From positions 1-36,474 of IMG/VR virus record IMGVR_UViG_3300025133_000323: a stretch of DNA of 36,474 nucleotides; one strand, written 5' to 3'. Positions 9,603 to 34,994 of the stretch are shown piece after piece; the first letter of the stretch is position 1; each line of letters opens with the position of its first letter. The notes under the pieces are model-generated. The model was given only the letters and a program-made list of their open reading frames with translations. It ran no database searches and was not told the origin of the DNA. This DNA is from a virus. The position numbers and the translations under genes were made by a program.

Positions 9603-10523
9603 TTAACTGTCCGTAGGCACAATATAGCCTTGCTCCAGAGAGTCGCAAATATCCCCTGGATTCTCGTCTTGTGTGCCGCGATAAAGAGTGGATTGGGAGG
9701 GCATCGCGACCCCCTCTATTTCAGAGTCTACTAAAATCTTTAAATAAAATTCTACATACTTTTCATCTAATATTGGAAAGGCGGACGCAATTTGTTCTTC
9801 ACTCCCTTCCAGGGTTTGTGACAGTTGGCGAGGATTAGTCTGTTGGCGCAATGAGAGAGTACCATTATCTTCAAGATCTTGGTTGATAAAATAAAGTTTT
9901 CGCATAGTATCATCTTCACGCTGTTCGAATACCTCTATATCAAAATTCCCATTGAGTTTAAAAAGTGTATTTAATTCTTGTACGTCCAGATTTAATGTTT
10001 CTACCTTGTGGTTGACAATCGGGAAAGGAGGATCTTGTTCCAGGGTCCCGCTTCGATAGTAAACAGTGTCGTTGGATGCACTCATCATGGGTACAGTATT
10101 GTTAATCTGATAAGTTACTCCAGGCTTTAATTCTGTTGGACTTCCCTCCATTAAGGTCACATTCCAGGCCGGATAATAATCACTCCACGGACTACTGCTT
10201 CCCAGGAAACGATAATAAGGAGCGTTAAACTCGGACACTTGATAAATTTGATTAACCAAATCAGCACTGTCGATGGCCACGATACTCTGATTACTTCCGG
10301 TAAATCTCGTGAGAGGTTTGACCCTCGGGGTTTCTTGTTTGATACGAGTAACAATCGCATTTTGAGATTCCGAGATCCCGCCATATTGTCCATCATACAA
10401 TATATCAGTATCATAAAAAGCATAATAATGAGGATTAAATTCTCCCGAAGCAAATTTTTGTTTGCCATAAGGAGTTAGCTCAATATTTAACACTTCTTCT
10501 TTTTGATTAAAAAATGTAGTCAT
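9603..10523 (-). CDS. Phage tail structural protein with conserved 'ELTPYGKQKFASG' N-terminus (306 aa)
   Basis: A 306-residue protein that opens MTTFFNQKEEVLNIELTPYG, then KQKFASGEFNPHYYAFYDTD and ILYDGQYGG. From memory this is a conserved N-terminus of tail-region proteins in large marine myoviruses. It aligns in register with the 335-aa protein at 1527-2534, suggesting a shared assembly module. The C-terminal half is acidic and contains FKLNGNFDIEVFE and FYLKILVDSE, probably beta strands; no catalytic motif is seen. The ATG at 10523 has only a weak upstream GAG, about eleven bases away, so translation initiation may be modest or coupled. It follows the 3519-aa gene after 24 bases. It may be a connector of the baseplate or of a large tail component. 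Confidence 0.78.
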   Translation of the reverse strand: MTTFFNQKEEVLNIELTPYGKQKFASGEFNPHYYAFYDTDILYDGQYGGISESQNAIVTRIKQETPRVKPLTRFTGSNQSIVAIDSADLVNQIYQVSEFNAPYYRFLGSSSPWSDYYPAWNVTLMEGSPTELKPGVTYQINNTVPMMSASNDTVYYRSGTLEQDPPFPIVNHKVETLNLDVQELNTLFKLNGNFDIEVFEQREDDTMRKLYFINQDLEDNGTLSLRQQTNPRQLSQTLEGSEEQIASAFPILDEKYVEFYLKILVDSEIEGVAMPSQSTLYRGTQDENPGDICDSLEQGYIVPTDS

Positions 10524-10547: not shown

Positions 10548-13500
10548 TTATTCATCGTTGATTTTCGAGATTGCAGAAAAGATAGCCGGAGATGGCGGAG
10601 AAGAAGCGTCTTCGGGATTTTGGATACTGAGCTTGACTTGTCCTGAATTTTGTGCTTCTTCGTACTCTCTATGTAATTCCGGTCGAAAAACAACTTTAGT
10701 ATCAAGTTTGCCGAGTTCGATGAGCGAGAAATAATCGTAAGGCCAGTTATAAGAACCCTCTCCCAGAGAATGCTTAATCTTATATATATCTTTAGAGTAT
10801 TTGGCACGGGATCCCATAAGTTTGTCCATTTGTGCACCGGAGAGACCTTGGCTGGAAAAATATCCTCTAACATTATCATAAGTTAAAGCTTGGGGACCAT
10901 CTACTTCCTCCATTACCATCTGAGAATAATCTACCAAGCCCCGTTCTTTCACTTTAAATACAACCCATTTAATATCAGGAAATAGTCCGCGCTTGTCGGG
11001 CATTCGAGAAATATCAATAATATCATAACGAGGGTGACCAGTTCTTTCAACTCCCAGTTCTATTTGCTTTTTGAGAACTTCTGGGAATTTGGTTACATCC
11101 TCTTCTACATTATCACCTGGCAGATAATGATCTATTGCCGCATAACTGGTGGTGAAATTGTGCCCCAGACTTGGCATGATCCCCTGCCACATATCGGCAA
11201 GATCTTGACGAGAAAGAGTGACTTTGTGTTCCAGAAGATAGACGGCGGGAGTAGTAACTATCTTCTCTCCCTCTAAAATTTCATCATAGTTATCCCCGCC
11301 AAAGGGATTAATAGTATCCGAAATATGGGGGTATCCCGGAGGAAGGAGTCCGAGTAGTTTAGACGCTAATGTGGGGGGTAGTGAAAAGCGGGTAAACTGT
11401 TTTCGAAATGCTTTGATTTGGGGACCGAGTTTATCAGCAGGGGCCCTCAAAGGAATAAGGTGAGCTTCATTTTTCTCATCGAGATAAAAAGGTAGAGCCA
11501 AAATAGCTTCAGATAAGGTTTTTTCCTTATCTTCTCCTAATTCTCCCAGCCGCTTAGCTTTCGTCAAATCCATCCCGTTTCGTATAACCTCATCTGGATC
11601 AAAACCACAAAGGTCAGCTAAAGATTGAACTTCGCGACCGGAATCGATCACCACCTTAGGTATCTTCTTAACATATATGGAGTTACTCGCAGTGTTTCCT
11701 CCGCCCATGTAATCTATATAACTTTGGGCTATATAATCATATTCTTCCTCATCCCCCGTGGGGATATCTTTAATATATAAGTAAACACCCTGATTATCAT
11801 TTGGTATCGTCCCATATTGATGCCACATCCCCTGAGTTTCTGAAAGATATTCTGAGGGTGTTACCGAAGAAGAGAAGTTATAATTAGTTGCCCCTGATCC
11901 TGTCTGGGGGAAATCTAAGATCGGACATTCCCACTTTGGCATAATTGTCCACTTGTTTGGATCCAGAGGAGTGTAGGTTCCGCCATCGATAGGAAATTTA
12001 TTATATAAAGATATAGACGCATCGAGATCCATGCGATTTTGCCAGGCACGGTTCCACCCATAGGTGGGTGTCGCCACTGAAGTTACAGTGTTGCCATCAC
12101 GATCGACGTAAGAGCCTGATGTCATGTCATAATAGCTTCCGCTCTCGTTAAGGTATTGAATAAACAATTCTCCACGGCGGTTATCTAAAATTTCTTCCAA
12201 CGTATAATCCGTCTTATCCCCTTGGGGCATGAAGAGAATGCGGACCAGAGAAGGTCCATAATAGTACGGAGGAGTATAAGGAGCGAATTCGCCGCGGTGC
12301 TGCGGCCAGTCTAACGCTCCACCATTAGGAAGATATGAGGCACTGAGGTCACCCCAATCCGAAGAACCGGTTGCAGTGGGCATCCCAAAAGCATAAGGGT
12401 TGCTATAAAGATTACTCTCGCTCGTCTTGAATAGTCCCACTTCCATCATATACGCAGCGTTATCTTCCACCTGTACTATTCTTACTGGATGTGTTGATTG
12501 TTGAGAATCTTTCGGAGGGTAGCCAAACTGAGAAACAAACTTTGTCAGATAACCTTCCTCGCCCAGCTTGTTGTATTTTTTAGTCAAAAAGAACTTAGGA
12601 ATGTTCGCCAAAAAGTTGGATATAGACTTCTGGTAGAAACTATCTTCCGGAGTAGTAGTCAAAGAACCCGTTACATCCAAGAACAAAGTGTGATTAATGT
12701 CCGAAAGTACTGTTCCCAAATTAGATCCACTTTGCATTACTGATGCCGGGTCCATAATAGATTCAAAGGGCAATCGATCAGCCCAAAAGAAAGCATCTAC
12801 ATCACTGTTTGACCAATCAAAAGTACCATTGTTGCGACGACTATTGCCTGGAATACTTCCTGCCGGAGTAGCGGAAGAAAGAGTGCCTGAGAGGCATCCA
12901 TGCAGAGGGGTCGTGTTAGAACTACTCAAAAACTGAGTGTTGTTCCGTGTTTCTCGGCGAATGGGATAATCAACAGCAACTCCCGCCTTAATAGAGTTAT
13001 AAAGGATACCAGGCGCAAAGAAGGGCCTTAACATGGACCGCCAAGCCGAGGTAGCCGTTTTATCAGCCCCATCGTAAGTCATGTGGTTCGAATAGGCTCC
13101 GTGAAACAGCGAAGCTATCTCCAGGCTTCGGTTAACGGGATAAAAACCATTATAAGGTAGAATCTTTAACAGAGCATCTGATTTTATTTCAAAGTGGCGA
13201 GGGAACTTGTTAAATATATAATTCCTATTCTGTTTATCACTGGGCATGAAGTTTTCCAAGAACTCCATTTTATCAGTTTCAGAATATCTCTCATAGAAAT
13301 CAATATTAGTCCCATCAAACATTGAGTCAGAGGCACCTGTTAATTCCAGAGAGGATTTTACGAGAGACGTTAGGGAGCCATTGGTTTTAAATTCTGCTAT
13401 ATGCTCACTAATCCGATATTCGGGCAAAATCGTATAGGCTTTTCCAACTCTGCGGATATCCTCTACATATGTCTCATAATTATCATAAAAGGGAGATACT

Positions 13501-16500
13501 GTGCCTGCATAGGTTCCCTTGTCTGTCCCTTGGACATACTTACGAGAAGTAGCCGCTGTCCAAGGGGGGCGAGTATATACTGAGCCGGGTGATCGGGGCT
13601 CCACCAATTCTTGGCAGGATGAAACTGATGCAGTTCCTCCTCCAAAATCTGGACCATAAATGAACCCACTGACTTCTGCCGTGCCGGCGATTACTTTACC
13701 GTTCATCCCCGTTCCGCAGACATCAGCTATCAAACTAACTCGGGGGTCTACCACCGAAGTTACCGAAATATTTACATCTCCTGCCACTTGACGTGCGGTG
13801 ATGGCGTCACCAATCGCTTGAGATATTTTCGCGGTACTATCTGCGCCTTGGGTGCCGATCAACCAACTGGGTGAACTTGCCACCGTGGTATACGCAACCG
13901 AGCTATGAAATGTAGAAGTTACAAGACCATGGGCAACATCGTTCAACTCAAGCGTCTCTACTCCCTTGCCATAATCCCAAAATGTTCCATTAAAAGTTGA
14001 GTCTAAAAAGGAAGGCCCGGCATCGCCGGCGATCATCTGGGTGTAGCCGCCGCCGGTGTCGGACTCAGCATAAAAACAGCTACCAGTGATGGTGCGACGA
14101 TTCCACTCCGTGGGGTCCAAAGAAGTCTGGTAAAAATATACTCGCGATGGAGTTCCGGGATCAATATGAGGGCGAATAGCTAATGCTGAAGAGGTGTAGG
14201 CAGATTCAAACGAAGAAGAAATCCGGTTTGCCAGTTGAGCCGTGGTTGTAAGAGATTGATAACCGATATTCATAGGATCATAGAGATCCGAGCCCGAATT
14301 AAAATAGAAACTATAGACAGTAGCAGGGAAATCGATGGGAGCCGAGGAAGAGAGTGCCAGAGTTGTGTTATGCAGAGTGTCTGCTCTGTCAGCACCGCCA
14401 CCGAAGCCTGCCGCCACGATGCCGGCACTATCGACCCGAGTAGAAGATAACACCTTAGCATTCATCAGAGATCCTAACTGCCATGCCGTAACATTGATGG
14501 TATCTGTTCCCGAGTCTGTCACGCTGATACTTAACGGCACGGTTGGTGTGGTTACTGAATCACCAAGAGCGATAAGGAGAGTATCCCTAATCTGTTCCAC
14601 TGTTCCTCCGAATGTCCCGCTTAGTCCTACATTGTATTTATTGGTAGCCCCATCATAACTTGTAGTTCCAGTTGTTTCATCAAATACAAATTCTATAGAA
14701 GTAGTAAGGTCTTGTACGGTAACTGATTCTCCGTTTAATGACGTGCGAGAGGCTACTATCTGCACTACAAAGCTGCCCGTAGCCGCTGCCGGGGGTACCG
14801 GGGGCTCATCGATATCAATGAAGGTATCTCCCAGAGTTTTTGGTTCGTTTTGCCATCTAAGAGCGTCTATATAACTGGTAGCACACACAGCAGGAGTAGT
14901 TGAGCAAGTATAATAAGTTGAGGGGACATTATAAACATATTGTGCAGAAATTGTTTTTGCCGACTCGTACATGGCTGTAATGGGAGAAGTTTTATATGGA
15001 TTATAGGTTGCCTGGTCATAAACCCGACCATAATGTGTCATCATAAGTTCGCCGGCTGCCATGGTTCCAACATCAGCTAACAACACTGGCACACCGCCGG
15101 TCAATACCGTCACTAAAGAATCCCGAGAATCAGCATAAAGATAAGAATCTAAAGGCCACCTTGAACCTTGTCCAAAGCCTGCGATTGATGCATCGGGGTC
15201 TAAATAACTTACTGGGGTTTGATCCTGATACATTACTGAGTAATCTTGACTTGTTTTGTATGGATAGACAAGTCGGCGGTATTGTCGATTATAAGTAGAA
15301 ATCGGTACTGTTCCAGTTACTTGAGAATAATTGGCAAAGGCACTCATATCAGTGGAGACCACCAGCTTATCATCTTTCCAGAAATCATTCACAAATGCTT
15401 GGCGCGCACGTGATCCGGATAAATAAGTATAAATCTCCTTGGGATGGATAGTTTCTTGATAACTGGTAAGTTTTAATAAATCAATACCAGTCACAGCCCG
15501 ATCTACTTGGTCTACAAATTTTTCTCGGATTACTTCATAAGGTCGTTTAATTTTACCATAAGCGAACTTTACATTGCCCGCAAGTTCATAATTTAATTGA
15601 CGGTTGGCAAATCCCATTAAAGCATTTCCGTAAGAGTATTCCAAGTTAAGATGAGTCTTATGACTGGTAGTCTTAGTGGGAGTTCCTATGTTAGTCCGGA
15701 CATGGTGAATTAAAGGCTTGTACCGAGACGTGACTGGGGCTTCTCTGTATTGCTGGGAATAATAATATGGTTCACCAAAGTTATTTCGATCATACTCCAT
15801 ACGAGTTTTAGTATTAATGGTTGTCGTATCATTAGAATAAAAATTACTAACCGGGGACGGCAACAAGGCATCTGATGTTAGTGAAATGTTGGGCAATAGT
15901 TCATACACATTATTTTGAGAATAATATTTCCCCGCGGCTGTCTGAGAACTTCTGAGTTGTTTCCAGGGAACAAAATCTCTATAATTCGCCCACTTAAACT
16001 CTTTTGATCCATCCAGTCCTACGATCAAAGAAGCATCAAACCCAGGTGCGGCGGGATAAGCATCACTGCTTTGAGTAACAAAATAAATGTTGTCAGGGTA
16101 GCGAGCGCCCCGGACTACATAAGCATTGTAGGTATTTAGATTATCCCCACCTGAAATATAGGACGTCCATTGTGCTCGATCCGCCGAAGGGATGGGATGA
16201 GTTACGTACGCATTATCATAGACGTTACCGGTAATATAAGTGAGCGTTGGGTCAGTTGAGCCAATCTCAACGCGCGGTCGGGTATTACGCTGCGTCTGCA
16301 CAGGAGCAGGCAGATCAGTAAGAGAACTATAACCACCCCATTTTACGTGTGCCGTTAGAAGCTGATTGTACGGTTGTCTTACTATCAAATTCCTGAATGG
16401 TAAAGCGTTATTTGGTGCATATTGATCGGAGTTCACGTCCCTAAACTGTTGTTTTGATGTTTGTTTTCCGCCGGGGGCTGAAAATCTATCAACTATAATA

Positions 16501-19500
16501 GTCTGGTTTGTGCGTCGAGAGGCTATCTGACGGGGGGCCGGATAATCTGCCGATCCTGTTAATCCTGCCGAACGTCGAGAAGGGGGAGTAACAAAGGCAG
16601 TGGGCATCGTATACGCATAATGGGAAGTGTTGGTAATAAAATCCATATTAGTAAGAGATCGATCGGCTGTTTGTACAACTTCATACTTCTTAAGATAATT
16701 TCCTATTTGGCGTACGCCGGAAGTAGCTGAATGTCCAGCCACTATAGTGCGAATGTTAGAGATATTAACTGGTGCTTTAGCAGCAGAGTTTCGGAGATAA
16801 TATCCTGGCGGTGTAGATCCCGGCGTAACCCTATTTACAGAACCAGTAGAGGATACCACCGAAAGTGTAAATGCTTCCTTGCGGTCCTCTGTCCTCATCG
16901 GACTTACGTGGCGAGATTGCCGTCCGCCAACCCACTGTTCCGTAAAGGGACCCTGGAGAGGGATTCCTTGCCTGGGTGAAGGCATAACATTATCGTGATG
17001 GAAGTTGGTTATTGTCTGGGAGGTAAGTCCGGCTGCTGCCAAAACTGCATTATATCCTGTATTAAGTGTAGACTGGAAGACACTAAACGGGGCAATCTGC
17101 TCCCCAGTGTAATTAACTCCGTCCATTGTAGCTCGGAAAGCGATTCTCTTCCTTTGTCCCGGAATAATGATATCATCGATGTCGCGCAAACTTTTGAATT
17201 GATCGAAAGTGAAGTTTTGAAAACTAAGTTTTTTATTGAAAGCAGGGTTGGATCCCCCTCCTATGTTAAGAGGAAAATCGGTCCTGAGGACACGAATAGC
17301 TTCCGGAGCCAGTGATCTGGCTAAAGACTTCTTCGTTGCCTGGCGTGTATAAAGATTTTCACCGGGTCCCGCCAGAGGAGAATCATAACGCTCCGCGCGG
17401 CGTTGCCAATAGGGAGCATTCTCCGATTCCATCCCGTTGACCGGGCGGTGGTTAAAGCGCCAGCCCGATGTATAAATATTTTGGCTAATTCCGCGCCGTA
17501 GGGCTGAACCTCTACCGGTAATACCTCTACCTACCCCGCCGCCAGGTCTGGGGATACGGGGTCTTTCTATTCCTCCCGACACCTCGACGGGAATCGATTC
17601 CGGAATTGTCCCTCCAGGAATTCGGGCAGGTATAGCAGGATCATTAGGATCTCCCTCTAATCCTAAGAGGGGTTCTGGTCCACCCAGGGATCCCTCGGGT
17701 CCGCCGCGGCGACCATTGTCTCGTCCGGGGCGGCGGTCGCGGGTTATAGACGCTTGGTATTGGATCTTGGGTCGCTCAAGTACATGACTTTCTATCATTT
17801 TTCGTGTATTTTTGGCGTACCGAGCAGATGCCGGCAATAACTGCTCTATCATAGTACCAATAGCACTGTCAAGCCACTTATAGTAATCTACATATTTTTC
17901 TAAATCTGGTATGTCGTTTTGAACTTTTTGGAAAAATAGTTCTCGTACATGTTCCATTTTCTTATAGTTTGCCCGGTATTTATTAACCGGCTCGCCGATG
18001 AGGTTATTGAATTCATCGATAGATGCAAACATCTCTAAAATGCGATCAGAGATTCCTTTATACATGCTGCGCTCAACAGCAAAAAAGAAACTCTGAGGTC
18101 TGACATATACGCCAAACGTCTCTTCGTTAGCACTGAGTACCCGTACCATATTATCATCGGCGGCATACTCGGGCGGCTGCAACTTTTCGGTCTGGAGATA
18201 AGCTTTGCGTACCGGAGTATAGTTAGCGGAAAAGAAGTCGCCGCGGCCCGTATGTTGCCGAAGATTGATGGGGCTTAAATTACCCTGGTAAGAGGAAGGA
18301 TAATCTCCGGAAGTGGATCCCGAAGAATAATCAGAGATATTAAATCGCCCGGAGGCGTCCGATTCTGAAACGTTTGCCAGGTCCCAATTCATTGCCAACG
18401 TAGCAATCTTAGGAATAAACACCGAAGGAACAGTCGTCTGAAAAGAATAAGCATTCTTATAAGGATTGTTTCGTCCAAAAGCATCTGAACTTTTTGCCTG
18501 CAAATCTAAAGTAGTGCTTGGTAGATAATCAGTCCAATACCTAATACTGGAGGCTTTTATATCTGTCGATACCAGGGTGCTCCCAGTATAATTGGTTCTA
18601 TGAGCCCCTACATATATACGCTTCGCCCCAGACAGAACAGTCGATCCACTGAGCGGTGTATATGATGATGAAATAGCGAAACTATGTTGCTTAACGCCAG
18701 AATCATAATTTACCCCATACAATTCTAACCAATACCCGTTAGTCGCGGCGCTGGACCCAGAAACGCTATCGGCAAAGGGGTATTTTTGGGGGCGTAGGGA
18801 TAAAGTGAAATTCCATTTCTTATTCTCGTAGACATTAGTATAAATGCTACTACTCAATAAGGTGTCTCCGGCTCGATTTTTTACAATAAAATAAGCATCT
18901 TTGACATTCTTCAAGGGTTCATATACTTCAGCATACTCCCCAGGCGCTTTTACTGCATACACTTCGAGACCGTAGTCATTGGCTGCTGATTCCCACGTTA
19001 GGTCGGTAGAAGTCTGAGATTTGTCCAGTGGAGTATGAAATCCGAACAGAGACGAGGAAACCACACTGGGCATCTCGTAATCAAGATATAAATAATTTTG
19101 TTTATCCGGAAAAACAACTTCAGCCTGGAGAGCAACGGCTTGGTCTTGACTATTCGAAACTGATCCCGTTATCAGTCCAACTGAATTACTATTTGTAGCA
19201 TCATAATATTGGTATAACGTGGCTTCGTCGTCTGACTGTTGCAACAATCCCGTAAAGTCGGCATATTTTTTAGTACTGGTAGAAGTCTTATAGGAATCAA
19301 GGAGTTTATAATCGGCGTTATCTGTATACGTATTGAGGGCGATAATCTCGTCATCTACCCCAAGACAGCGTATAAAATTACGAACTGACTTCTCGCTTCC
19401 TTTGGATTTAAGGATCTGGGCTAAATTATTGTAAATGTTCTTATAGATAACATTCTTAACATCTTCCAGCCGATTATCGAAATTTATCTGCTCGTCGCGT

Positions 19501-21107
19501 TCTAAAAACTGCCCTAAAGAGTCAATATTTTCAAAGAGTTCTGGCGTATCAATGCCGAGATTCTCAACTAAGCGATCGCTATAAGGCATCTCATTGATAG
19601 ATCCCGTTAAACTACCAGACAAATAATCAACTGAACGGGCGTTCTTGAGTCCCTGAGCTTGGTTATACAGCGTATCAAAATAATTCGCCATCACTTGGGT
19701 TATTTTTAAGAGTTCGTTCGAGCCCGCTTCTTCCTCTTCTATGACCCAAGCCGGCAAATGATTAATCATGCGAGCATTATTTTGGGCATCATAGTTGCTG
19801 CCGCTCAATTCGTAGGTATCTTTAGCTGTGATATAGCGAGGGTTAGCTGTCCGAATGATCGGATCAGGAATTTCTCGAACCGATTTAATGGACAGGTCAT
19901 CAACAGCGGAGCCAAGATTTCTACTCGCCGAACTGTAGCCAACATAGAGACCGTTAGATACGCGACCAGAATAGTCTAAGATAACCGAGTCAGTATTCGA
20001 GTCGCCGGTTACACCTTCATTAAACTTATAATATACCCCAAGAGAAATATTGGCATCGTATTTATTTGAGCCGCCGTTGACATGACTAAACCAGTGTTGT
20101 CCAATTTGTTCCGCGTTCCGGGCTTTTTTCCAGAAGCGGAATTCATCCAATGATCCTGAAAACTTTCCGTCTCCTTCCAGAACACCAGCAGTGCCCGATG
20201 GGGCTACTCGAAGAGCCCCAATATTGGAGATCATGGTTCCCGTAACTTCACTTATCAGTCCCGAGCCAGTAAGTCCAGTGTGAGTACAGTCCCCATTTAT
20301 ATAAAAATCTAAAGTAGGGGTAGCCTGCGAGGTATCGAAAGCAAACGCATAATTGCGCCACGTCCCATCATTAATAGATATAGATCCCGTCGGGATAGAA
20401 ACATTAGAAAATCCGGCAGTACCCGACAGCATCGTCACTTCAAAATGGTCAGCCGAACCAGTAGCTATCTCAATTCGTAAGCGTCCATAGCCAGCCGAGC
20501 CGGTACCCGCACCATTCCATAAATCAAATACCACCTGGCGAGGGGATTCTACGGCGGCGTCAAGGTCAGCGGTCTTCTTATAGAAAAATTCTACTGTTGT
20601 CCCATGGGTGCCGCCAAAGGTCAAGTTGGAGGTACGATTTTTCTCTTCATCAAAAAGAGTGTCCTTGTGTGGTCCGCCCTTAGTTTGAATATATTCATTC
20701 GTAGCGGAATAATAACCACTGGCATGTGGCGTCAGGGATCCATAAGTAGTGCCATTAGAGATATAGCCAGTGGAAGCAGGGTAGACCTCCTCCAGCATAT
20801 ATTTTTCTAACGGATTCAAATCGTTATAGAATTTAGTCTTCTCTAATCCCGAGCCGTCGTAAGGATAATAGCTTGAGATATAAGTGAAGGTGTTGTTATA
20901 ATATTGCTTCGCTGATCCAAATCGAACAAAATTTAAAGGATTGGAATAATCTACAGGAGGGAGAAAGTATTTTTGTTTCTCTACAAGTTGGCTAAGATGC
21001 TCTTCTGATTCAACACCCGCTCCCACAGTATCCGCCGCGGTACTTCTTAGATATTTGCTAACAGTGGCTGCCTGCTTGTTGTTGTCAAATAACTTTTTTA
21101 TACTCAT
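10548..21107 (-). CDS. Giant mosaic baseplate/tail protein with LamG-like lectin domain (3519 aa)
   Basis: An uninterrupted frame of 3519 codons overlapping the upstream gene by four bases (ATGA). Visible parts: (1) residues about 165-335, a LamG/concanavalin A-like fold with DGTWRNYAFAFDTS, LDFYINGD and GSLDEFRFWKKARN; (2) residues about 450-590, a segment resembling phage tail protein P2 gpI, with NLAQILKSKGSEKSVRNFIR then CLGVDDEI; (3) residues about 1118-1201, a Gly/Pro/Arg-rich linker; (4) residues about 1360-1430, a block with GPFTEQWVGGRQSRHV and PPGYYLRNSAAKAPVNI, which from memory recurs in giant proteins of uncultured marine phages; (5) residues about 2105-2500, beta modules with repeat character; (6) a conserved-looking C-terminus with KWVVFKVKERG and SYNWPYDYFSLIELGKL. 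It follows gp6-like and DNRLRE-like genes, so a baseplate role with glycan binding is likely. Its size is far above T4 gp7 (about 1030 aa). Confidence 0.85.
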   Translation of the reverse strand: MSIKKLFDNNKQAATVSKYLRSTAADTVGAGVESEEHLSQLVEKQKYFLPPVDYSNPLNFVRFGSAKQYYNNTFTYISSYYPYDGSGLEKTKFYNDLNPLEKYMLEEVYPASTGYISNGTTYGSLTPHASGYYSATNEYIQTKGGPHKDTLFDEEKNRTSNLTFGGTHGTTVEFFYKKTADLDAAVESPRQVVFDLWNGAGTGSAGYGRLRIEIATGSADHFEVTMLSGTAGFSNVSIPTGSISINDGTWRNYAFAFDTSQATPTLDFYINGDCTHTGLTGSGLISEVTGTMISNIGALRVAPSGTAGVLEGDGKFSGSLDEFRFWKKARNAEQIGQHWFSHVNGGSNKYDANISLGVYYKFNEGVTGDSNTDSVILDYSGRVSNGLYVGYSSASRNLGSAVDDLSIKSVREIPDPIIRTANPRYITAKDTYELSGSNYDAQNNARMINHLPAWVIEEEEAGSNELLKITQVMANYFDTLYNQAQGLKNARSVDYLSGSLTGSINEMPYSDRLVENLGIDTPELFENIDSLGQFLERDEQINFDNRLEDVKNVIYKNIYNNLAQILKSKGSEKSVRNFIRCLGVDDEIIALNTYTDNADYKLLDSYKTSTSTKKYADFTGLLQQSDDEATLYQYYDATNSNSVGLITGSVSNSQDQAVALQAEVVFPDKQNYLYLDYEMPSVVSSSLFGFHTPLDKSQTSTDLTWESAANDYGLEVYAVKAPGEYAEVYEPLKNVKDAYFIVKNRAGDTLLSSSIYTNVYENKKWNFTLSLRPQKYPFADSVSGSSAATNGYWLELYGVNYDSGVKQHSFAISSSYTPLSGSTVLSGAKRIYVGAHRTNYTGSTLVSTDIKASSIRYWTDYLPSTTLDLQAKSSDAFGRNNPYKNAYSFQTTVPSVFIPKIATLAMNWDLANVSESDASGRFNISDYSSGSTSGDYPSSYQGNLSPINLRQHTGRGDFFSANYTPVRKAYLQTEKLQPPEYAADDNMVRVLSANEETFGVYVRPQSFFFAVERSMYKGISDRILEMFASIDEFNNLIGEPVNKYRANYKKMEHVRELFFQKVQNDIPDLEKYVDYYKWLDSAIGTMIEQLLPASARYAKNTRKMIESHVLERPKIQYQASITRDRRPGRDNGRRGGPEGSLGGPEPLLGLEGDPNDPAIPARIPGGTIPESIPVEVSGGIERPRIPRPGGGVGRGITGRGSALRRGISQNIYTSGWRFNHRPVNGMESENAPYWQRRAERYDSPLAGPGENLYTRQATKKSLARSLAPEAIRVLRTDFPLNIGGGSNPAFNKKLSFQNFTFDQFKSLRDIDDIIIPGQRKRIAFRATMDGVNYTGEQIAPFSVFQSTLNTGYNAVLAAAGLTSQTITNFHHDNVMPSPRQGIPLQGPFTEQWVGGRQSRHVSPMRTEDRKEAFTLSVVSSTGSVNRVTPGSTPPGYYLRNSAAKAPVNISNIRTIVAGHSATSGVRQIGNYLKKYEVVQTADRSLTNMDFITNTSHYAYTMPTAFVTPPSRRSAGLTGSADYPAPRQIASRRTNQTIIVDRFSAPGGKQTSKQQFRDVNSDQYAPNNALPFRNLIVRQPYNQLLTAHVKWGGYSSLTDLPAPVQTQRNTRPRVEIGSTDPTLTYITGNVYDNAYVTHPIPSADRAQWTSYISGGDNLNTYNAYVVRGARYPDNIYFVTQSSDAYPAAPGFDASLIVGLDGSKEFKWANYRDFVPWKQLRSSQTAAGKYYSQNNVYELLPNISLTSDALLPSPVSNFYSNDTTTINTKTRMEYDRNNFGEPYYYSQQYREAPVTSRYKPLIHHVRTNIGTPTKTTSHKTHLNLEYSYGNALMGFANRQLNYELAGNVKFAYGKIKRPYEVIREKFVDQVDRAVTGIDLLKLTSYQETIHPKEIYTYLSGSRARQAFVNDFWKDDKLVVSTDMSAFANYSQVTGTVPISTYNRQYRRLVYPYKTSQDYSVMYQDQTPVSYLDPDASIAGFGQGSRWPLDSYLYADSRDSLVTVLTGGVPVLLADVGTMAAGELMMTHYGRVYDQATYNPYKTSPITAMYESAKTISAQYVYNVPSTYYTCSTTPAVCATSYIDALRWQNEPKTLGDTFIDIDEPPVPPAAATGSFVVQIVASRTSLNGESVTVQDLTTSIEFVFDETTGTTSYDGATNKYNVGLSGTFGGTVEQIRDTLLIALGDSVTTPTVPLSISVTDSGTDTINVTAWQLGSLMNAKVLSSTRVDSAGIVAAGFGGGADRADTLHNTTLALSSSAPIDFPATVYSFYFNSGSDLYDPMNIGYQSLTTTAQLANRISSSFESAYTSSALAIRPHIDPGTPSRVYFYQTSLDPTEWNRRTITGSCFYAESDTGGGYTQMIAGDAGPSFLDSTFNGTFWDYGKGVETLELNDVAHGLVTSTFHSSVAYTTVASSPSWLIGTQGADSTAKISQAIGDAITARQVAGDVNISVTSVVDPRVSLIADVCGTGMNGKVIAGTAEVSGFIYGPDFGGGTASVSSCQELVEPRSPGSVYTRPPWTAATSRKYVQGTDKGTYAGTVSPFYDNYETYVEDIRRVGKAYTILPEYRISEHIAEFKTNGSLTSLVKSSLELTGASDSMFDGTNIDFYERYSETDKMEFLENFMPSDKQNRNYIFNKFPRHFEIKSDALLKILPYNGFYPVNRSLEIASLFHGAYSNHMTYDGADKTATSAWRSMLRPFFAPGILYNSIKAGVAVDYPIRRETRNNTQFLSSSNTTPLHGCLSGTLSSATPAGSIPGNSRRNNGTFDWSNSDVDAFFWADRLPFESIMDPASVMQSGSNLGTVLSDINHTLFLDVTGSLTTTPEDSFYQKSISNFLANIPKFFLTKKYNKLGEEGYLTKFVSQFGYPPKDSQQSTHPVRIVQVEDNAAYMMEVGLFKTSESNLYSNPYAFGMPTATGSSDWGDLSASYLPNGGALDWPQHRGEFAPYTPPYYYGPSLVRILFMPQGDKTDYTLEEILDNRRGELFIQYLNESGSYYDMTSGSYVDRDGNTVTSVATPTYGWNRAWQNRMDLDASISLYNKFPIDGGTYTPLDPNKWTIMPKWECPILDFPQTGSGATNYNFSSSVTPSEYLSETQGMWHQYGTIPNDNQGVYLYIKDIPTGDEEEYDYIAQSYIDYMGGGNTASNSIYVKKIPKVVIDSGREVQSLADLCGFDPDEVIRNGMDLTKAKRLGELGEDKEKTLSEAILALPFYLDEKNEAHLIPLRAPADKLGPQIKAFRKQFTRFSLPPTLASKLLGLLPPGYPHISDTINPFGGDNYDEILEGEKIVTTPAVYLLEHKVTLSRQDLADMWQGIMPSLGHNFTTSYAAIDHYLPGDNVEEDVTKFPEVLKKQIELGVERTGHPRYDIIDISRMPDKRGLFPDIKWVVFKVKERGLVDYSQMVMEEVDGPQALTYDNVRGYFSSQGLSGAQMDKLMGSRAKYSKDIYKIKHSLGEGSYNWPYDYFSLIELGKLDTKVVFRPELHREYEEAQNSGQVKLSIQNPEDASSPPSPAIFSAISKINDE
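13620..14800 (-). repeat. Repeated beta-modules inside the giant protein
   Basis: Two related modules of roughly 110-130 residues flank a third beta-rich module. The first, encoded near 14800-14390, reads VEQIRDTLLIALGDSVTT, ISVTDSGTDTINVTAWQLG, MNAKVL and FGGGADR. The second, encoded near 13970-13620, reads STAKISQAIGDAITARQ, ISVTSVVDPRVSLIADVCG, MNGKVI and FGGGTAS. The order helix with A-x-G-D-x-[IV]-T, then ISVT, then MN-[AG]-KV, then FGGG is kept in both. The pattern resembles the 'ATAL..I....ISVT....V.LT...G..GN' repeats seen in many phage structural proteins. Module limits are approximate. Confidence 0.55.
17505..17755 (-). other. Gly/Pro/Arg-rich linker segment of the giant protein
   Basis: This part of the 3519-residue frame encodes about 84 residues dominated by Gly, Pro and Arg, including RDNGRRGGPEGSLGGPEP, IPARIPGGTIPES and RPGGGVGRGITGRG. 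It is visibly richer in G+C than its surroundings and is unlikely to form a globular fold. It separates the N-terminal LamG and gpI-like half from the large C-terminal body, so it probably acts as a flexible or extended linker. Confidence 0.6.
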
Positions 21108-22588
21108 TTATCTTCTTCTATTCTGATTTTGAACACTTCAGGCTGCTCTTGATAGGCACCCTGTAAATAGTATGCAAACTTAATTCCATAAGCGAAGCCG
21201 GCTTCTATTTCCTTAGTGTCTAACTCAAAATAGTTTCCGCTGACATCATAAGATAAGCGGCTATAATTGTTGGCAGCACTCCCGGTTCCGTAAGGAATAA
21301 TATCGAGATCATCCACCATTCTAAAAACACGGTAATAAGCATTTTCAATAATTTCTGGAACTATCTTGGATGTTGCCTTGGTGTAGATGTTTGGGCTCCA
21401 GTTCTTTTTGCGAGCAAAAACTCTCAAGGTAGGATTTTGTCCCTTTACGTACGAGGCTTCTAAGTTGGGCATTGATGTTACATATTTTTGATTATACATT
21501 AGTTCCGAAGTCGAAACTGATTTCGGAGTATAAGAACTGGTAAAGAATTCTACGCGACTTCCCCCTGACCCAGTAGACCACACATCAAAAACGGGAGTAT
21601 AGCTACTCGTAGAAGCAAAAGAAGCTGTATATATACCAGTGGCAGTTATATTGTTTTCCACCAGCAAGCCAGCGGTAACGCTTGTGCCAGAAGAGCCATC
21701 CGCACTTACTATAGTTAAAGGATCTCCCACTGGAGATGTGCTCCCTGAATAAACTTCCACACTCAGAGTGTTGCCAGTAAGATTAGGAATATCTTGTAGT
21801 TGTCCCCGAATTACATTGTACATATACAAAGTATTTAAATTTTCCGACGCTGGTGCCAAGCTACTGCTGATGGCAAAATCTCCACGGTTATCCCGTCGAG
21901 TGGAATCCCACCACGCTTCAATCGTTGGTCGGTAATCATAATATTCACTAGTGCGCGCAAAAAACATCTTAGTGTACAGACTGGTAGTACCTGAGACTGC
22001 CGAGTCCGGATATTTAATAAGGAAGCCAGCGTTAGTGGTTCCATTGAGCCATTGGTATACTTGTTCAGAGACGTCCAATCGTAAATTCTCTAACCCTGTT
22101 TCGAAGAATACACTTCCCGAGGTCCCCGCCCCCGTTAAGATGGATCCACCCGCAGACGTCCACGCCGTCGCTGCGGACGCCGACACCCAGTTAGACGCGC
22201 CCAAATCTGTATAGTTGTTCATGTCCAGTCCTCGTCCCTCGTTCCAGGGTTGAGAAGCCATACATACATCGAGACTATAACTCAATGGGGTGGTGTTTCC
22301 GTGGGGCGCATTATACAAGTTAAGATAAAACTTTATACTGCCAGAATCATTAGGTAAGGTTCCGGCGGCCATATCGGTGGATATAGTAGAAACAGGAAAC
22401 TGAATGAGGAAACGCGATTGCTCTGCGTTTATAGCATTAATGGGAGCATTTGTTTGTCCATGGACAACAAAAGTCTCCAATATATCTGCCGCGCCCATAT
22501 TAGACCCAGTTCCACGTAATACTAAATTATTCTTATATGCATTCGTAATAGTATTATCTTGAGATGCAAAATATTTTTTAATACCCAT
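21104..22588 (-). CDS. Tail structural protein with DNRLRE-like beta domain (494 aa)
   Basis: A 494-residue protein beginning one base after the gp6-like stop codon and overlapping the giant 3519-aa gene by four bases, so it is probably translationally coupled to both. Around residues 50-230 it resembles a DNRLRE-type beta domain: an early RFLIQFPVSTI strand, then SVFFETGLENLRLDVSEQ, VYQWLNGTTNAGFLIKYPD and a closing strand with YDYRPTIEAWWD. The rest is Ser/Thr-rich with strands such as LSVEVYSGS and SRVEFFTSSYTP. The C-terminal part (EIIENAYYRVFRMVDDLDII, AYQEQPEVFKIRIEEDK) is Tyr-rich and likely beta-structured. No catalytic motif is seen. Its place between gp6-like and giant baseplate genes suggests a baseplate wedge partner. 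The domain call rests on pattern memory. Confidence 0.72.
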   Translation of the reverse strand: MGIKKYFASQDNTITNAYKNNLVLRGTGSNMGAADILETFVVHGQTNAPINAINAEQSRFLIQFPVSTISTDMAAGTLPNDSGSIKFYLNLYNAPHGNTTPLSYSLDVCMASQPWNEGRGLDMNNYTDLGASNWVSASAATAWTSAGGSILTGAGTSGSVFFETGLENLRLDVSEQVYQWLNGTTNAGFLIKYPDSAVSGTTSLYTKMFFARTSEYYDYRPTIEAWWDSTRRDNRGDFAISSSLAPASENLNTLYMYNVIRGQLQDIPNLTGNTLSVEVYSGSTSPVGDPLTIVSADGSSGTSVTAGLLVENNITATGIYTASFASTSSYTPVFDVWSTGSGGSRVEFFTSSYTPKSVSTSELMYNQKYVTSMPNLEASYVKGQNPTLRVFARKKNWSPNIYTKATSKIVPEIIENAYYRVFRMVDDLDIIPYGTGSAANNYSRLSYDVSGNYFELDTKEIEAGFAYGIKFAYYLQGAYQEQPEVFKIRIEEDK

Positions 22589-22589
22589 C

Positions 22590-24383
22590 TTATGTTACCA
22601 CTCCTTCAATATCCGCACTCGAAAATAACACTTCTGCTGCCGCGTCTTGAGGGATGATAAGATACCGTCCGTCATCGGTAAGATTAGATTCGATATCATA
22701 AACCACGTCGCTATACTTACCACCTGACCTATTAAACAATTCTACCTCCGTAGTATCCACCACGCCCGGAACTTCATTTAAGAGCTTATAGATCTGGGCG
22801 AGATGGATAGCTTGTCCGATGTCTGGCGTGACATTTAGAAAGTCGGTTTGAAGCTTAGCAATACATCTCTGTAACAAAGTATATCTATTTATATCTTGTG
22901 CCGGTAACACCTTAAAACGTATACCATAATTGATGATACGTCCATCGATAATGTCCATGGTATCGTTAATCATACGATATCGGTTAAGCCACGTTCGCAT
23001 ATTCTCTTTTAAAGTATTATTAGGAACTCCTAAAGTTCCGGTGGCAGTCTCCGAGAGGACATAAATATTCAAGTTATTGTTGACCGATTCTACGTCCCTT
23101 ACTACGTTGCAACGCTTCACTTTTCCAAATTTAGCTGGCATACGATATAAAAGACTGGTATAATCTTCACGAGTTACTGCTCGGTTTTGAGAAGCAAAAG
23201 TGGCATATGCCCTCTGTTTGAGTTCTTCCAAAGAAGGAAAGGATATATCCCCCATAATGGGTTGTTCATTTTCAAGTTCCAAAGAGCTAACGACGCCATT
23301 AAGTAAAGAGCCAGCCAAAGATGCTCGGTTCTTGAAGGAAAACTGGGGATTGGTGGCGGAATTTAGAGCGCCCACAGGCGCGTTTATCCCATTAGTTCTA
23401 TTTGCATAATATGAAACAGTCAACGTAGTATTGACAGGAACGACTCCAAATTTATCAGTTTGTATAAGATTGGCTGGATCAAATGTTTCTTCAGACACAT
23501 AGTTTTTGCCGTTAACTTCAAGCACCACATCTGCCGGATCGGCTATTAAATTACTCGTCAAATTCTCTTCGGAGCCGTACCCAAATTGAAGAAAGGTACC
23601 GCCTACGGCATTATTGACTGTAACAAAGCGTCGGGCAGCAGGCACCAAACGCAAAACATATGGGACGTCCGCCTTGTTAGTATTATAATTGGGTACTTGC
23701 TTATAGACCACATCCTGCGTTAAGTAATCTACTTCATAATACTCATTACCCTGAGAATCTTTAACTGACATGACTTCTGTAATATTTTTTCTCTTCAGTT
23801 CTATATTGCGAAAACGCATGTAATCTCCTATGATGAAGGTATCTCGATATTGTTGTCCCGAGATTACGGTACCATAGGCTTTAATCGCAAAGAATGTAGG
23901 GTTTCCTGTAGTGTTGTCCACTTGAGAGACGGTTACTTCATTATTAGGGTTAGTAAAATCCACATCTTCCACTAATGTAAAAGGAGCGTTACTTGTAGAC
24001 TGAAGCAGTGTTCCAGCTTGAAGGATAGGCATATAAGCTACATCAGGTCCGCGCGTTGCGGTATTTACAGGAACGGATATATAAAAAGCTACTTGCCCAG
24101 TAGAACGAGCAGAGCCGGGCATCTTATACCCCAGCACTCTTGCCATGCGCAACACATTACCATATTGGATAGCACTATCCATATAACTTTCATTTGCTTG
24201 GAAATCTGTATAAAAAGAAAGCTGATCACCGACATAAGCCACCAAGTCCAGCATCATTGCACCAAAAGATGCCTCACTGAAATCTTTAAAAGTGGTTGGA
24301 TAATAACGTTTGGCATAATTGACTAAATCTTCCTTGATGGAATCAAAGTCTCTGCTGGTATAATTGATGGGTCTTTTAGACAT
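22590..24383 (-). CDS. Baseplate wedge protein, gp6 / J-like
   Basis: A 597-residue protein that matches the gp6/Baseplate_J-type family, which forms the ring joining wedges around the hub of contractile tails. The N-terminus INYTSRDFDSIKEDLVNY, SEASFGAMMLDLVAYVGDQL, then SFYTDFQANESYMDSA and LGYKMPGSARSTGQVAFY is highly characteristic. Near residues 395-425 the sequence AVTREDYTSLLYRMPAKFG then KVKRCNVV is another hallmark; the C-terminal part carries a predicted ferredoxin-like tail region. Length is close to T4 gp6 (660 aa). It follows the gp25-like gene directly, the order seen in T4 and most contractile injection systems. The start at 24383 has GAGG about nine bases upstream. Confidence 0.93.
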   Translation of the reverse strand: MSKRPINYTSRDFDSIKEDLVNYAKRYYPTTFKDFSEASFGAMMLDLVAYVGDQLSFYTDFQANESYMDSAIQYGNVLRMARVLGYKMPGSARSTGQVAFYISVPVNTATRGPDVAYMPILQAGTLLQSTSNAPFTLVEDVDFTNPNNEVTVSQVDNTTGNPTFFAIKAYGTVISGQQYRDTFIIGDYMRFRNIELKRKNITEVMSVKDSQGNEYYEVDYLTQDVVYKQVPNYNTNKADVPYVLRLVPAARRFVTVNNAVGGTFLQFGYGSEENLTSNLIADPADVVLEVNGKNYVSEETFDPANLIQTDKFGVVPVNTTLTVSYYANRTNGINAPVGALNSATNPQFSFKNRASLAGSLLNGVVSSLELENEQPIMGDISFPSLEELKQRAYATFASQNRAVTREDYTSLLYRMPAKFGKVKRCNVVRDVESVNNNLNIYVLSETATGTLGVPNNTLKENMRTWLNRYRMINDTMDIIDGRIINYGIRFKVLPAQDINRYTLLQRCIAKLQTDFLNVTPDIGQAIHLAQIYKLLNEVPGVVDTTEVELFNRSGGKYSDVVYDIESNLTDDGRYLIIPQDAAAEVLFSSADIEGVVT

Positions 24384-24401: not shown

Positions 24402-24809
24402 TTAAATAGTCACGGCTGAAGTTATTACCAGTTGGTCTGAGCCCACATATGGTGATAGATTATAGTTAATAACTAACTGCACTTCATTATAAGCGAGCAC
24501 GCTGTTTTCATCACTTGTCACAAATTGAATTTCTTCTATATTAACAGCCGGTAAATAAATTGACTTTTGTTCACGAATTTCTTGAACTAAATTGTCCATC
24601 ACCGGACCAGTCAACGGTTCAAATAAATATTGTTTAAGACCTACACCAAACATAGGGTCCATGAGACGTTCGCCTGGAGCAGTTAATATAAGAGTCTTGA
24701 AATTTTGACGGATAGCTTGTCCAACAGTCTTGTTCAACTCATATGGACCATCGACGGGACTATACCGAAGTGGTACAGATACTGAAATTCCTAACCCTTT
24801 ATTGCTCAT
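24402..24809 (-). CDS. Baseplate wedge protein, gp25-like (GPW/gp25 family)
   Basis: A 135-residue protein of the GPW/gp25 family, a core wedge component of contractile tails that contacts the sheath. Visible hallmarks are LNKTVGQAIRQNFKTLILTA, then PGERLMDPMFGVGLKQYLFE at residues about 44-64, where PGER and FG are the family signature. The length is typical (T4 gp25 has 132 residues). Despite its historical name 'lysozyme-like', the family is structural. The start at 24809 has a strong GGGGGA upstream. The gene is followed after 18 bases by the gp6-like gene, the usual partner. Its last two codons overlap a CTATTTA element at 24403-24409. Confidence 0.93.
   Translation of the reverse strand: MSNKGLGISVSVPLRYSPVDGPYELNKTVGQAIRQNFKTLILTAPGERLMDPMFGVGLKQYLFEPLTGPVMDNLVQEIREQKSIYLPAVNIEEIQFVTSDENSVLAYNEVQLVINYNLSPYVGSDQLVITSAVTI
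24403..24409 (-). promoter_or_regulatory. CTATTTA element upstream of the gp6-like gene
   Basis: The minus strand reads GACTATTTAAACTTAGAGG across the gp25-like stop codon. The heptamer ends 19 bases before the gp6-like ATG, exactly the spacing seen for the copy at 406-412. The identical spacing could reflect a shared initiation or processing signal, but two cases are few and the motif is AT-rich. Confidence 0.28.
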
Positions 24810-24819
24810 ATTCTTCCCC

Positions 24820-27800
24820 CTATGTAAGTAGCGTCTCTAAAATCAATTTTTCATTCAAAAGGTCAGCCTGAAATCGGCGGGCGTAATTATACTGATATCC
24901 TAAAAATCTTAGAAAATCCCGAGGCGCGTGTTTTTGCATGTGTTCCCATTTTTCTTCGCCGGCCCACTCCTCACGGACGGACTCAAACCAAGAGTGGGGG
25001 CTGTTTTCCTCATCGACTACTGATTCCCGCGCCCCACCTTTCATAAAGCCGCTCTCTCCCATGGTGTCAAATACACTCCCAAGCCACTCGTAATAATCCC
25101 CCGAACCGTCGGTTATAGAGGGGCCGTCCAGCCCACGGTAACCTTTTGCGACCCAGGCTTTCCACACAGGGATATACCCACCGAGTTCGGTGGCATAATG
25201 TCTATATTGATTGGTGTGGAAATGATTTTTAAACTCCTCTAAACTGTCGGCAAGCGCTTGACCATATTCGGCTGTCATAAAACCTGAGTTAAAGCTAGTC
25301 CTAAAAAATCTGGCCACCCTCTTGGCGACGCCGTTGAGGTGGGCTTGGGTCTGCTGCCGTTTGGCGACCTTTAGCTGAATGTTGTCGTCTTCATGCTCAG
25401 CACCCAACGATATCGAGTGGACCCATTTACCAGCCTCAAAGTGCATTCCGGGGGATGTAAAAAATCCCGACTCTGAAAAGGCTTGTTTAAATGTGGCTCC
25501 GTCCTCGTCGGCGTCGCTCAACTCCACAAGCTGTGCAGGGGTATACAAGAGTTGACGACTTCGCAATTCTTCTTGGAAACCTTGAAGTTCTTCGTCTAAT
25601 ACTTGTAGGCGCGCCCTTACCTCATCAGCGTGATAATAAGTTGTATTATCACTCTGATCCCACTGCATTACGGCTACCGGGAAACCTCGAAATTTAGCAC
25701 TAAACCGGTCCACCATCTGACCCGCCAGGGCTGTCAAATACGCATCATCGGCGATGGCAGTTTCAAATAACAGTTTAGCATTAGTCTCACTATACCTTTG
25801 GCACGGGCGCACTGAATGATCATAGAAACTTAACGCCTGTCCGACTAATAGGGGTGCGGGAAAATAATATTGGGCAGCCGTAATACCTGTGTCAGTCAGA
25901 CGAGCGCGGTGCCACTCCTCTTCGGTAGCGTCAGTATTAGGAGGCAGGGGCTCCGGGTCGTCATATTCAATAAGAGACTGTCCAATTTCCGCTGCGCAAG
26001 CGCCCGCTTCCCCCTCGGTTAAACCAAAATTTTGATTCCCCTGTCCTAAGTGAATATTGAGGTACCCAAAAAATCTTCCTACCGATTTTCGGTATCGCTC
26101 CAAGACGATATTCGTCCGAAGGTGGTCCGCGAAAGCCCAATCCTCATAGATGCCGCGGTGGATGGTCTGATATTCACTAATGCGTCCAATATTTTCCAAC
26201 ATCTTCATTATCATAGATTTAACTGTAGTATGTAATTTCTCTTCTGGAGTGTCGGTGGTATTAAAAACTACCTGAGGGTTATCTTCGGGATAATTTGCAT
26301 AAACTTTTTCTATTAAATCAAATTTGCTATAAATTTTTCCTAACAGAGATCGGCTGCTCAATTCTTTTACAATTTGCTTGGTCATATAACTGGATATAAT
26401 TTCCACCGTTCCCAGTGACCCCCACTGCGGATATGGGGACGCCAAGGGCAATACATTCGTAAAAAATCTCTGTAAGCGTGCTTGAAGGACGGTCACCCAT
26501 GACGTTGCTATATAAATGTCGTTCGCATTCACGCATTCGTCATCATTAGGTTCAAACGGCATTACATTAGTGGCTTGAAGATATTTGGTCATTCTTCTGC
26601 GTGCGCGCGGTGAAGAAAATCCACGGTCTAACGTCTCGTCAATTTTCACCGTATAGTTTCCAAAGGCAGTGCAATCAATGCTACGGCCCGAGCGATCAAC
26701 CCCCTTGACTCCCGCGGTAGTAAGGTACTCCGGATTATGATCAATTCTCCCCTGTATCCCAAACATAAAGGGGTTAACTAAAGATAGGATACTATCCTCT
26801 AACTCTGTTTCTGTAAGAGAGGGGAATTTTACCCCCCTAAAATAATATTCCCCATTCTTCTGGATATATGTTCCCAGCATATTTGGTGTTCCAATTAGGT
26901 GCGCGTAATTGATAGGCACAGGATACCCTTCAGTTCCCGGCTCGATCGCAGTCTCGACATCCCGCGGAACATAAGAGGCTAAAATAGTAGGGTCCGGATA
27001 TTCCGGATTATCAAGAGGTACAAAATTGGGAACATAAGTAAATTCATTATGGGGATCATTTGTGAAAGCTGTGGCGAGAGTCACCCCAGGGTTATTCTCT
27101 GGTGATACCCGTGCATTGTTCACCCTCATAAAAATACGAGGATAATAACCTCCATACGAAGCCGCGGCGGTGTATTCTTTGGCGTAATATGCGGGATGGA
27201 TTACTTCGGTACAGAGTTGATTATTATAGTCGGCTTGGCTATTTAAAACCTCTGCGTAAGCGGAATTTCCGGGATGTTTTGTTGGATCTATATATTCTTT
27301 GGCTATTTCGTTTTTAATATGTAAAGGGGCCACCCGTTTCCCATAACTCCCCACTCGTTGATTAAGGGTTGCAGGTGATCGGGATCCCTCGGCGTTGACG
27401 AGACCAGGCTCTTCAAAAGGAAGAGGTAGATAGTTGGTGAGTCCTGCCACTAAGGTCTCGGTGACCAAATCCCTCACTTGAGAGTTCCCTCCAAGATTTG
27501 TGTGAGTTCCGCCATGGCGAGTTGGGAATTGTCGATAAACGTGATTGACTTCTCCGGTCGGTAGTTGACCGGGGCCCAGATTCAAAGGCGATGTAACAAA
27601 GGATACGGGGATGCCATTTCGCAGATAATCATAACTTTGAAAAAACATTTCCGAGCCCATCTTAGTGGAATAAAAATTATATACTAATTCAACCAGATGA
27701 TCGGGGGGCTTGGCGAAATAGGATTCTAATTGTTCCCCAAGATATGCTTGAAAAGCCAAAGAGAGGGCGGCGATCAATTTTAAGAGATCTTCATAAAATT

Positions 27801-34790: not shown

Positions 34791-34994
34791 CTATGGTATC
34801 AAAATTTCAGATTTCGAAGCATTGAGAGAATCGTCGAGATTATTCTTGACAAAGGGAGGGTTTAGTACAAATATCTCTCCATCTCGTTCTTCAAGAATCC
34901 AATCATTTAGGAGTTCGGTAATATCCACTTGTTCTGATAGGCACTTCTGCAAAGTCATTAAAAGCGCACCTGTTGCTTGTTTAGATAGTTTCAT
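34791..34994 (-). CDS. Conserved small phage protein (67 aa), unknown function
   Basis: A 67-residue protein (MKLSKQATGALLMTLQKCLS, then EQVDITELLNDW, and FVLNPPFVKNN). From memory, short proteins with an 'ATGALLMxLQKxLxEQxDI' start and a 'V-NPP' strand are widespread in T4-like marine phages, without known function. It likely folds as one helix followed by a small sheet. It overlaps the NAD synthetase stop by four bases (ATGA), with AAAGG and GAGGAG upstream, so it is translationally coupled. The 16 bases after it contain nothing recognisable except the leader of the TTG-started zinc-ribbon gene. Confidence 0.75.
   Translation of the reverse strand: MKLSKQATGALLMTLQKCLSEQVDITELLNDWILEERDGEIFVLNPPFVKNNLDDSLNASKSEILIP

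Follow-up and report, generated by a model that had tools for sequence, protein, structure and literature searches.

The 36,474-nucleotide viral sequence analyzed here in full (IMG/VR record IMGVR_UViG_3300025133_000323, hereafter the window) raises the question of what a phage makes of a single 3519-codon gene placed among its baseplate genes, and whether such a gene is real. A first-pass annotation had described a 3519-residue mosaic protein in one open frame, without giving the strand; it is encoded on the minus strand and contains no internal stop codon (Table 1), and a second contig carries a 3518-codon frame whose product is 89.5% identical to the giant protein over 3516 aligned codons. 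Comparison of the whole giant with a close relative gave a pN of 0.063 and a pS of 0.69. The frame is real and is under purifying selection along its full length, with regional pN against the close relative being lowest in the core (0.040 to 0.042) and the C module (0.045) and highest in the linker (0.152) and module M1 (0.110). Searches of Pfam, PHROGs, and NCBIfam with the whole giant returned no match beyond a LamG domain, and a search of titles and abstracts in the literature found no paper describing the protein.

The genes around the giant point to a probable role in the baseplate. In the order of transcription, a protein with an M23 peptidase domain is followed by proteins of 310 and 2076 aa, gp25, gp6, a 494-aa protein, the giant, and proteins of 306, 1209, and 1134 aa, and the part running from gp25 through gp6, the 494-aa gene, and the giant to the 306-aa gene forms a conserved block. 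The gp25-gp6 pair precedes the giant with one 494-aa gene in between, and a gp6 profile match was found upstream of the giant in most of those loci (of 85) in which the stretch was long enough. The first-pass annotation had placed the gene where T4 encodes gp7 and gp8, and the gp7 position holds: the giant follows gp25-gp6, and its core is homologous to the proteins found in the gp7 slot of three other lineages.

Table 1. Baseplate-block genes of the window and regions of the giant protein (residue numbers refer to the giant)
Feature	Coordinates	Strand	Evidence or remark
gp25, baseplate wedge/sheath initiator	24402..24809	minus	PF04965, E 6.7e-9
gp6, baseplate wedge protein	22590..24383	minus	phrog_219, E 6.5e-21; tblastn
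494-aa gene, conserved neighbor in the gp6-giant interval	21104..22588	minus	
Giant protein of the gp7 slot	10548..21107	minus	ATG at 21107; 3519 codons; ~390 kDa
LamG/pentraxin-like domain, residues 111-415	19863..20777	minus	PF13385; AlphaFold2 model and VIA
Wedge-like helical core, part 1, residues 416-640, with KGT-type motif	19188..19862	minus	gp7-slot homology
Second beta-rich domain, inserted in core, residues 641-985	18153..19187	minus	AlphaFold2 model, most of 600-980 predicted confidently
Wedge-like helical core, part 2, residues 986-1115	17763..18152	minus	Identity 0.49, highest of the N module
Gly/Pro/Arg-rich linker, residues 1116-1212, where some relatives are naturally split (site A)	17472..17762	minus	
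Module M1, residues 1213-1700, naturally split in some relatives close to its end (site B)	16008..17471	minus	
Module M2, residues 1701-2100	14808..16007	minus	
Mobile repeat, copy 1, residues 2118-2239	14391..14756	minus	Iterated profile
Mobile repeat, copy 2, residues 2241-2355	14043..14387	minus	Iterated profile
Mobile repeat, copy 3, residues 2384-2492	13632..13958	minus	Iterated profile
C module, residues 2501-3519, alpha/beta	10551..13607	minus	No solved relative found
306-aa gene, conserved, downstream of the giant	9603..10523	minus	

The three lineages were reached by tblastn of gp6 against INPHARED, which identified Flavobacterium phage immuto, Microcystis phage Mel-JY01, and the uncultured 484-kb phage LR756508. 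A profile of the N module matched their gp7-slot proteins with E values of 1.4e-16, 7.9e-15, and 5.8e-19, respectively, and hhalign of the N core against the gp7-slot proteins of the three lineages gave a P value of 1e-21. The homology is concentrated in two blocks, at profile positions of about 440 to 640 and 1014 to 1111. In the immuto protein these blocks are nearly contiguous and the intervening beta-rich domain is missing; the beta-rich domain of the giant is therefore an insertion. Encoded two or three genes after gp6 and annotated as hypothetical or left unannotated, the proteins of immuto (1265 aa), Mel-JY01 (1336 aa), and LR756508 (1404 aa) share the core of the giant but are about one-third of its length and have no match to its LamG stretch, and the M and C profiles found nothing at an E value of ≤1e-3 in the baseplate regions of these three phages, S-PM2, or T4. 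AlphaFold2 modeling of residues 1 to 1125 (39 alignment rows) yielded a mean pLDDT of 72, with the LamG and second beta-rich domains modeled confidently and the helical core below 50 over most of residues 491 to 599 and 988 to 1125. With the core modeled this poorly, its gp7-like fold is putative; the VIA matches to the N model were filled by the LamG domain (residues 112 to 410), so that the core was barely probed. The N module had no credible match among PDB sequence profiles, and PHROGs searched with 39 N and 25 C members gave scattered weak hits, each in at most three members (best E value, 0.0008).

A segment like P2 gpI had also been proposed, and here the evidence is suggestive only. 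The PF09684 (Tail_P2_I) model had no match in the window protein; hits below the cut-off, with E values of 0.003 to 0.024, fell inside the giant homologue in 3 of 17 other records (a count that excludes the window and the P2 control), and the best relatives scored 12 to 14 bits against a cut-off of 20.6, with every relative searched lying below it. Alignment to gpI by hhalign covered 39 columns around the KGT-type motif (P = 0.037). We do not assign the giant to Tail_P2_I, whose curated cut-off was not reached.

The LamG-like domain itself is well founded: PF13385 (Laminin_G_3) matched residues 161 to 335 with an E value of 8e-10 and 39.5 bits against a curated cut-off of 27.6, the Pfam match recurred in 37 of the 39 family members scanned, and the AlphaFold2 model of the domain was superimposed by VIA on PAPP-A over 214 residues (Z = 20; rmsd, 2.8 Å). 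A domain that confers host specificity is expected to be more variable than a wedge core. Within the N family (n = 39), pairwise identity averaged 0.426 for LamG, 0.414 and 0.492 for the two core parts, and 0.366 for the second beta-rich domain. LamG thus equals the wedge core in conservation, and the results support neither a receptor binder that gives specificity nor a variable reader of host glycans; it may bind a common glycan. Matches to LamG only, in cellular genomes (loci L167 to L201), are mostly in Bacteroidetes, which offers a faint hint of the source of the domain or of the host.

The N module is followed by a linker that the first-pass annotation had singled out as rich in Gly, Pro, and Arg; these residues make up 53% of positions 1123 to 1212, compared with 18% of the protein overall. 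Modules M1 and M2 had nothing credible among PDB sequence profiles, and Pfam searches with 23 M members recovered FG-GAP_2 in a single one. Self-BLAST of the giant for repeats found none at an E value of ≤1, but an iterated profile seeded with residues 2103 to 2240 revealed a module of about 110 residues in three divergent copies, in keeping with the repeat part of the earlier description. The same profile detected 89 copies in 48 of 80 sequences (some of them from one phage), and because they occur at varying places, the module is mobile. When the window is compared with its close relative, the repeat block has a pS of 0.41, against 0.69 for the whole giant, a difference in one pair of sequences that would fit recent exchange.

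The C-terminal region of about 1000 residues is conserved among relatives, as had been noted. Its AlphaFold2 model (25 rows) had a mean pLDDT of 69 and a pTM of 0.79, yet no PDB structure matched it with an E value better than 2.8, VIA returned a single unrelated chain (Z = 2.8), and PDB sequence profiles gave no credible match. Seven BFVD models matched the C model at an E value of ≤1e-3. Among them, A0A0F7LAZ6 from an uncultured marine virus shares the fold (Foldseek E value, 3e-44; TM score, 0.57); this protein is uncharacterized and gives no functional clue.

Among the 50,697 phage records of INPHARED, tblastn found no match to the last 1000 residues (E, 1e-3), the first 1110 residues (E, 1e-3), or residues 1203 to 2500 (E, 1e-2). 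IMG/VR yielded 20 loci through the last 1000 residues and 47 through the first 1110, and a C-module profile recovered at least 525 relatives, of which 80 were kept. Among 18 records searched for capsid and sheath genes at an E value of ≤1e-3 (14 from IMG/VR and 4 named phages), a Gp23 capsid gene and a sheath gene were both present in the same 8, namely, the 4 named phages and 4 IMG/VR relatives, with the sheath matches of the latter 4 falling under the family cut-off. Nine of the 10 records with no such match are shorter than the shortest of these 4 relatives, and no capsid gene was seen in the window. Because four long relatives carry both a Gp23 and a sheath gene, the relatives are taken to be T4-like, presumably contractile phages. 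The longest relative frame, at locus L062, has at least 4585 aa and continues past the end of its stretch. Two leads to a host were set aside. A match in a WOR-3 "chromosome" (L162, CP070664.1) is a phage contig flanked on both sides by 100 N within a draft scaffold, a placement that is probably a binning or scaffolding error, and the matches in Maricaulis and other draft genomes are short contigs.

The relatives also include natural dissections of the giant. Starting from 147 loci, we retained 118 in which the block is complete from the 494-aa gene to the 306-aa gene and, after removing those with a 306-aa protein ≥95% identical to one already kept, 86 non-redundant blocks; loci were picked via N or C and both flanking genes were required, and the sample is therefore a selected one. 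The block is one frame in 62 of the 86 and two or three genes in the remaining 24, so that the same modules exist as separate genes in relatives, as expected if the giant is, as had been suggested, a fusion of parts. C is present at the loci found through N, as N is at those found through C; N, M1, and C are present in the same order in all 86 blocks, and M2 went undetected in 1. The splits set N apart from the rest in 12 blocks (in one of which N is in two frames), fall after M1 in 9 and within M1 in 2, and leave three parts in 1. Cut A lies inside the linker rich in Gly, Pro, and Arg, and an ATG of its own starts the second gene; cut B lies at about residues 1657 to 1699 as placed from BLAST maps. 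In a FastTree phylogeny of the C module, built from a crude alignment and with SH-like support only, there are six changes between the fused and split states, of which at least five are forced for the fused group by the starred branches. In an IQ-TREE phylogeny of the N module, the sequences with cut A form one clade (100/100) nested among fused sequences, and those with cut B form one group with weak support (84/37). The nesting, in a tree with no inferred root, suggests that cut A was derived from a fused ancestor. Judging from their co-occurrence in sequence, the N, M, and C modules probably act together.

Taken together, these observations make it likely that the giant is the baseplate wedge protein that a T4-like contractile phage encodes in the gp7 slot, grown into an arm of three modules. 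The assignment to the gp7 slot is made because of position and core homology; the further steps we infer. T4 gp7 pairs with two copies of gp6 in the wedge. In XM1, a wedge contains a single gp17 and two copies of gp16. Two loop regions of this gp17 hold the tail spikes, which are bound by its C terminus and by an insertion that separates parts of its core (PMC10457771). By analogy with T4 gp7 and XM1 gp17, the core of the giant (residues 416 to 640 and 986 to 1115) would pair with two gp6 copies to form the wedge, and LamG and the inserted beta-rich domain would lie at the surface of the wedge. On the tether of the basic and probably flexible linker, the M and C modules may reach outward to the baseplate rim, and the rim that they form may hold or organize fibers; fusion would keep the modules at a 1:1:1 ratio, with six copies per virion. 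More tentatively, it is possible that in a large uncultured T4-like clade the multi-protein baseplate rim of T4 has been replaced by a single chain of about 3500 residues running from wedge to periphery, with a C-terminal ~1000 residues of unsolved fold, and with modules that, to judge from repeated natural cuts at the same linkers, could work tethered or free.

Other readings have to be weighed against this enlarged wedge protein. An adhesin, that is, a side fiber encoded beside wedge genes that mainly binds receptors through a glycan-reading LamG domain and has the C module as its tip, would account for the LamG/pentraxin fold (the carbohydrate-binding protein 4dqa is among the best matches), the mobile modules, the great length, and the low-complexity linker. 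We regard it as unlikely, since LamG lacks the variability of a specificity domain, a wedge-like core is within the same protein, and the C module is globular and conserved. A chain merging T4 gp7 with gp8 and gp10, a version of the merged wedge and receptor-binding tasks suggested by the first-pass annotation and one in which M and C would be very divergent gp8/gp10, has the genomic position in its favor, and gp8 (PF09215) and gp9/10 (PF07880) went unmatched in 13 of 13 IMG/VR relatives, as if absorbed. Nevertheless, no family link of the giant to gp8 or gp10 was found, nor any fold link of the C model, and we regard such a merger as improbable. The gp8 model is too weak on distant phages for the missing gp8 matches to count for much either way (the annotated gp8 of S-PM2 also falls under the PF09215 cut-off). 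Size alone would suit a tape measure protein, but the two folded regions are modeled as mixed alpha/beta and beta structures with no long helices and the gene follows gp25-gp6, which leaves very little room for this idea. The least credible reading is an assembly chimera or a read-through artifact joining several genes: although 24 blocks do carry two or three genes here, the single frame of the other 62, which include the 89.5%-identical separate contig, and the shared module order of fused and split blocks show that the frame is not an assembly chimera, and the split genes have clean stop and start codons and cluster on the tree.

The size and the slot of the protein are not new, as annotations of T4-like cyanophages already include giants in the gp7 slot. 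S-PM2p084 of Synechococcus phage S-PM2, a "virion structural protein" of 3048 aa, is likewise a giant multidomain protein directly after gp25-gp6; it belongs to phrog_4406 and also matches phrog_2885, "baseplate wedge subunit", and related PHROG profiles of cyanophage giants extend to 6136 positions. No relation between S-PM2p084 and our giant was detectable by hhalign (P = 0.02 to 0.5), and no PHROG matched the giant. T4 gp7 (1032 aa), XM1 gp17 (242 aa), and P2 gpI (176 aa) likewise occupy a slot next to gp6/gpJ, and their likeness to the giant is one of presumed working only: hhalign found nothing between the giant and T4 gp7, P2 gpI had no significant sequence match and shares the KGT-type motif only, and XM1 gp17 is likened to the giant by its described role. 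The novelty lies in the sequence family, in a C module for which no solved relative was found, and in the natural dissection. A common baseplate-block protein whose larger part is without a family, fold, or cultured example marks a genuine gap in how phages are annotated, and the fused and split versions supply ready domain boundaries for expression and cryo-EM, as well as a means of asking if baseplate assembly depends on the covalent link.

Several other genes of the window deserve mention. Upstream of gp25 lies a second giant of 2076 aa (24820-31050) with no convincing Pfam, PHROG, or NCBIfam match, and several relatives have frames of about 1934 to 2108 aa at this position. The protein in the spike position (32002-33231) has a C-terminal M23 peptidase domain (E value, 4e-24) instead of a T4-type lysozyme. 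The 335-aa (1527-2534) and 306-aa proteins have, by eye, a similar-looking N-terminal stretch. Finally, an NAD synthetase gene adjoins a putative nucleotide-sugar epimerase/reductase gene, the latter recognized by eye (34991-35782 and 35775-36473), and an annotated NAD synthetase gene is likewise located downstream of the tail genes in immuto.
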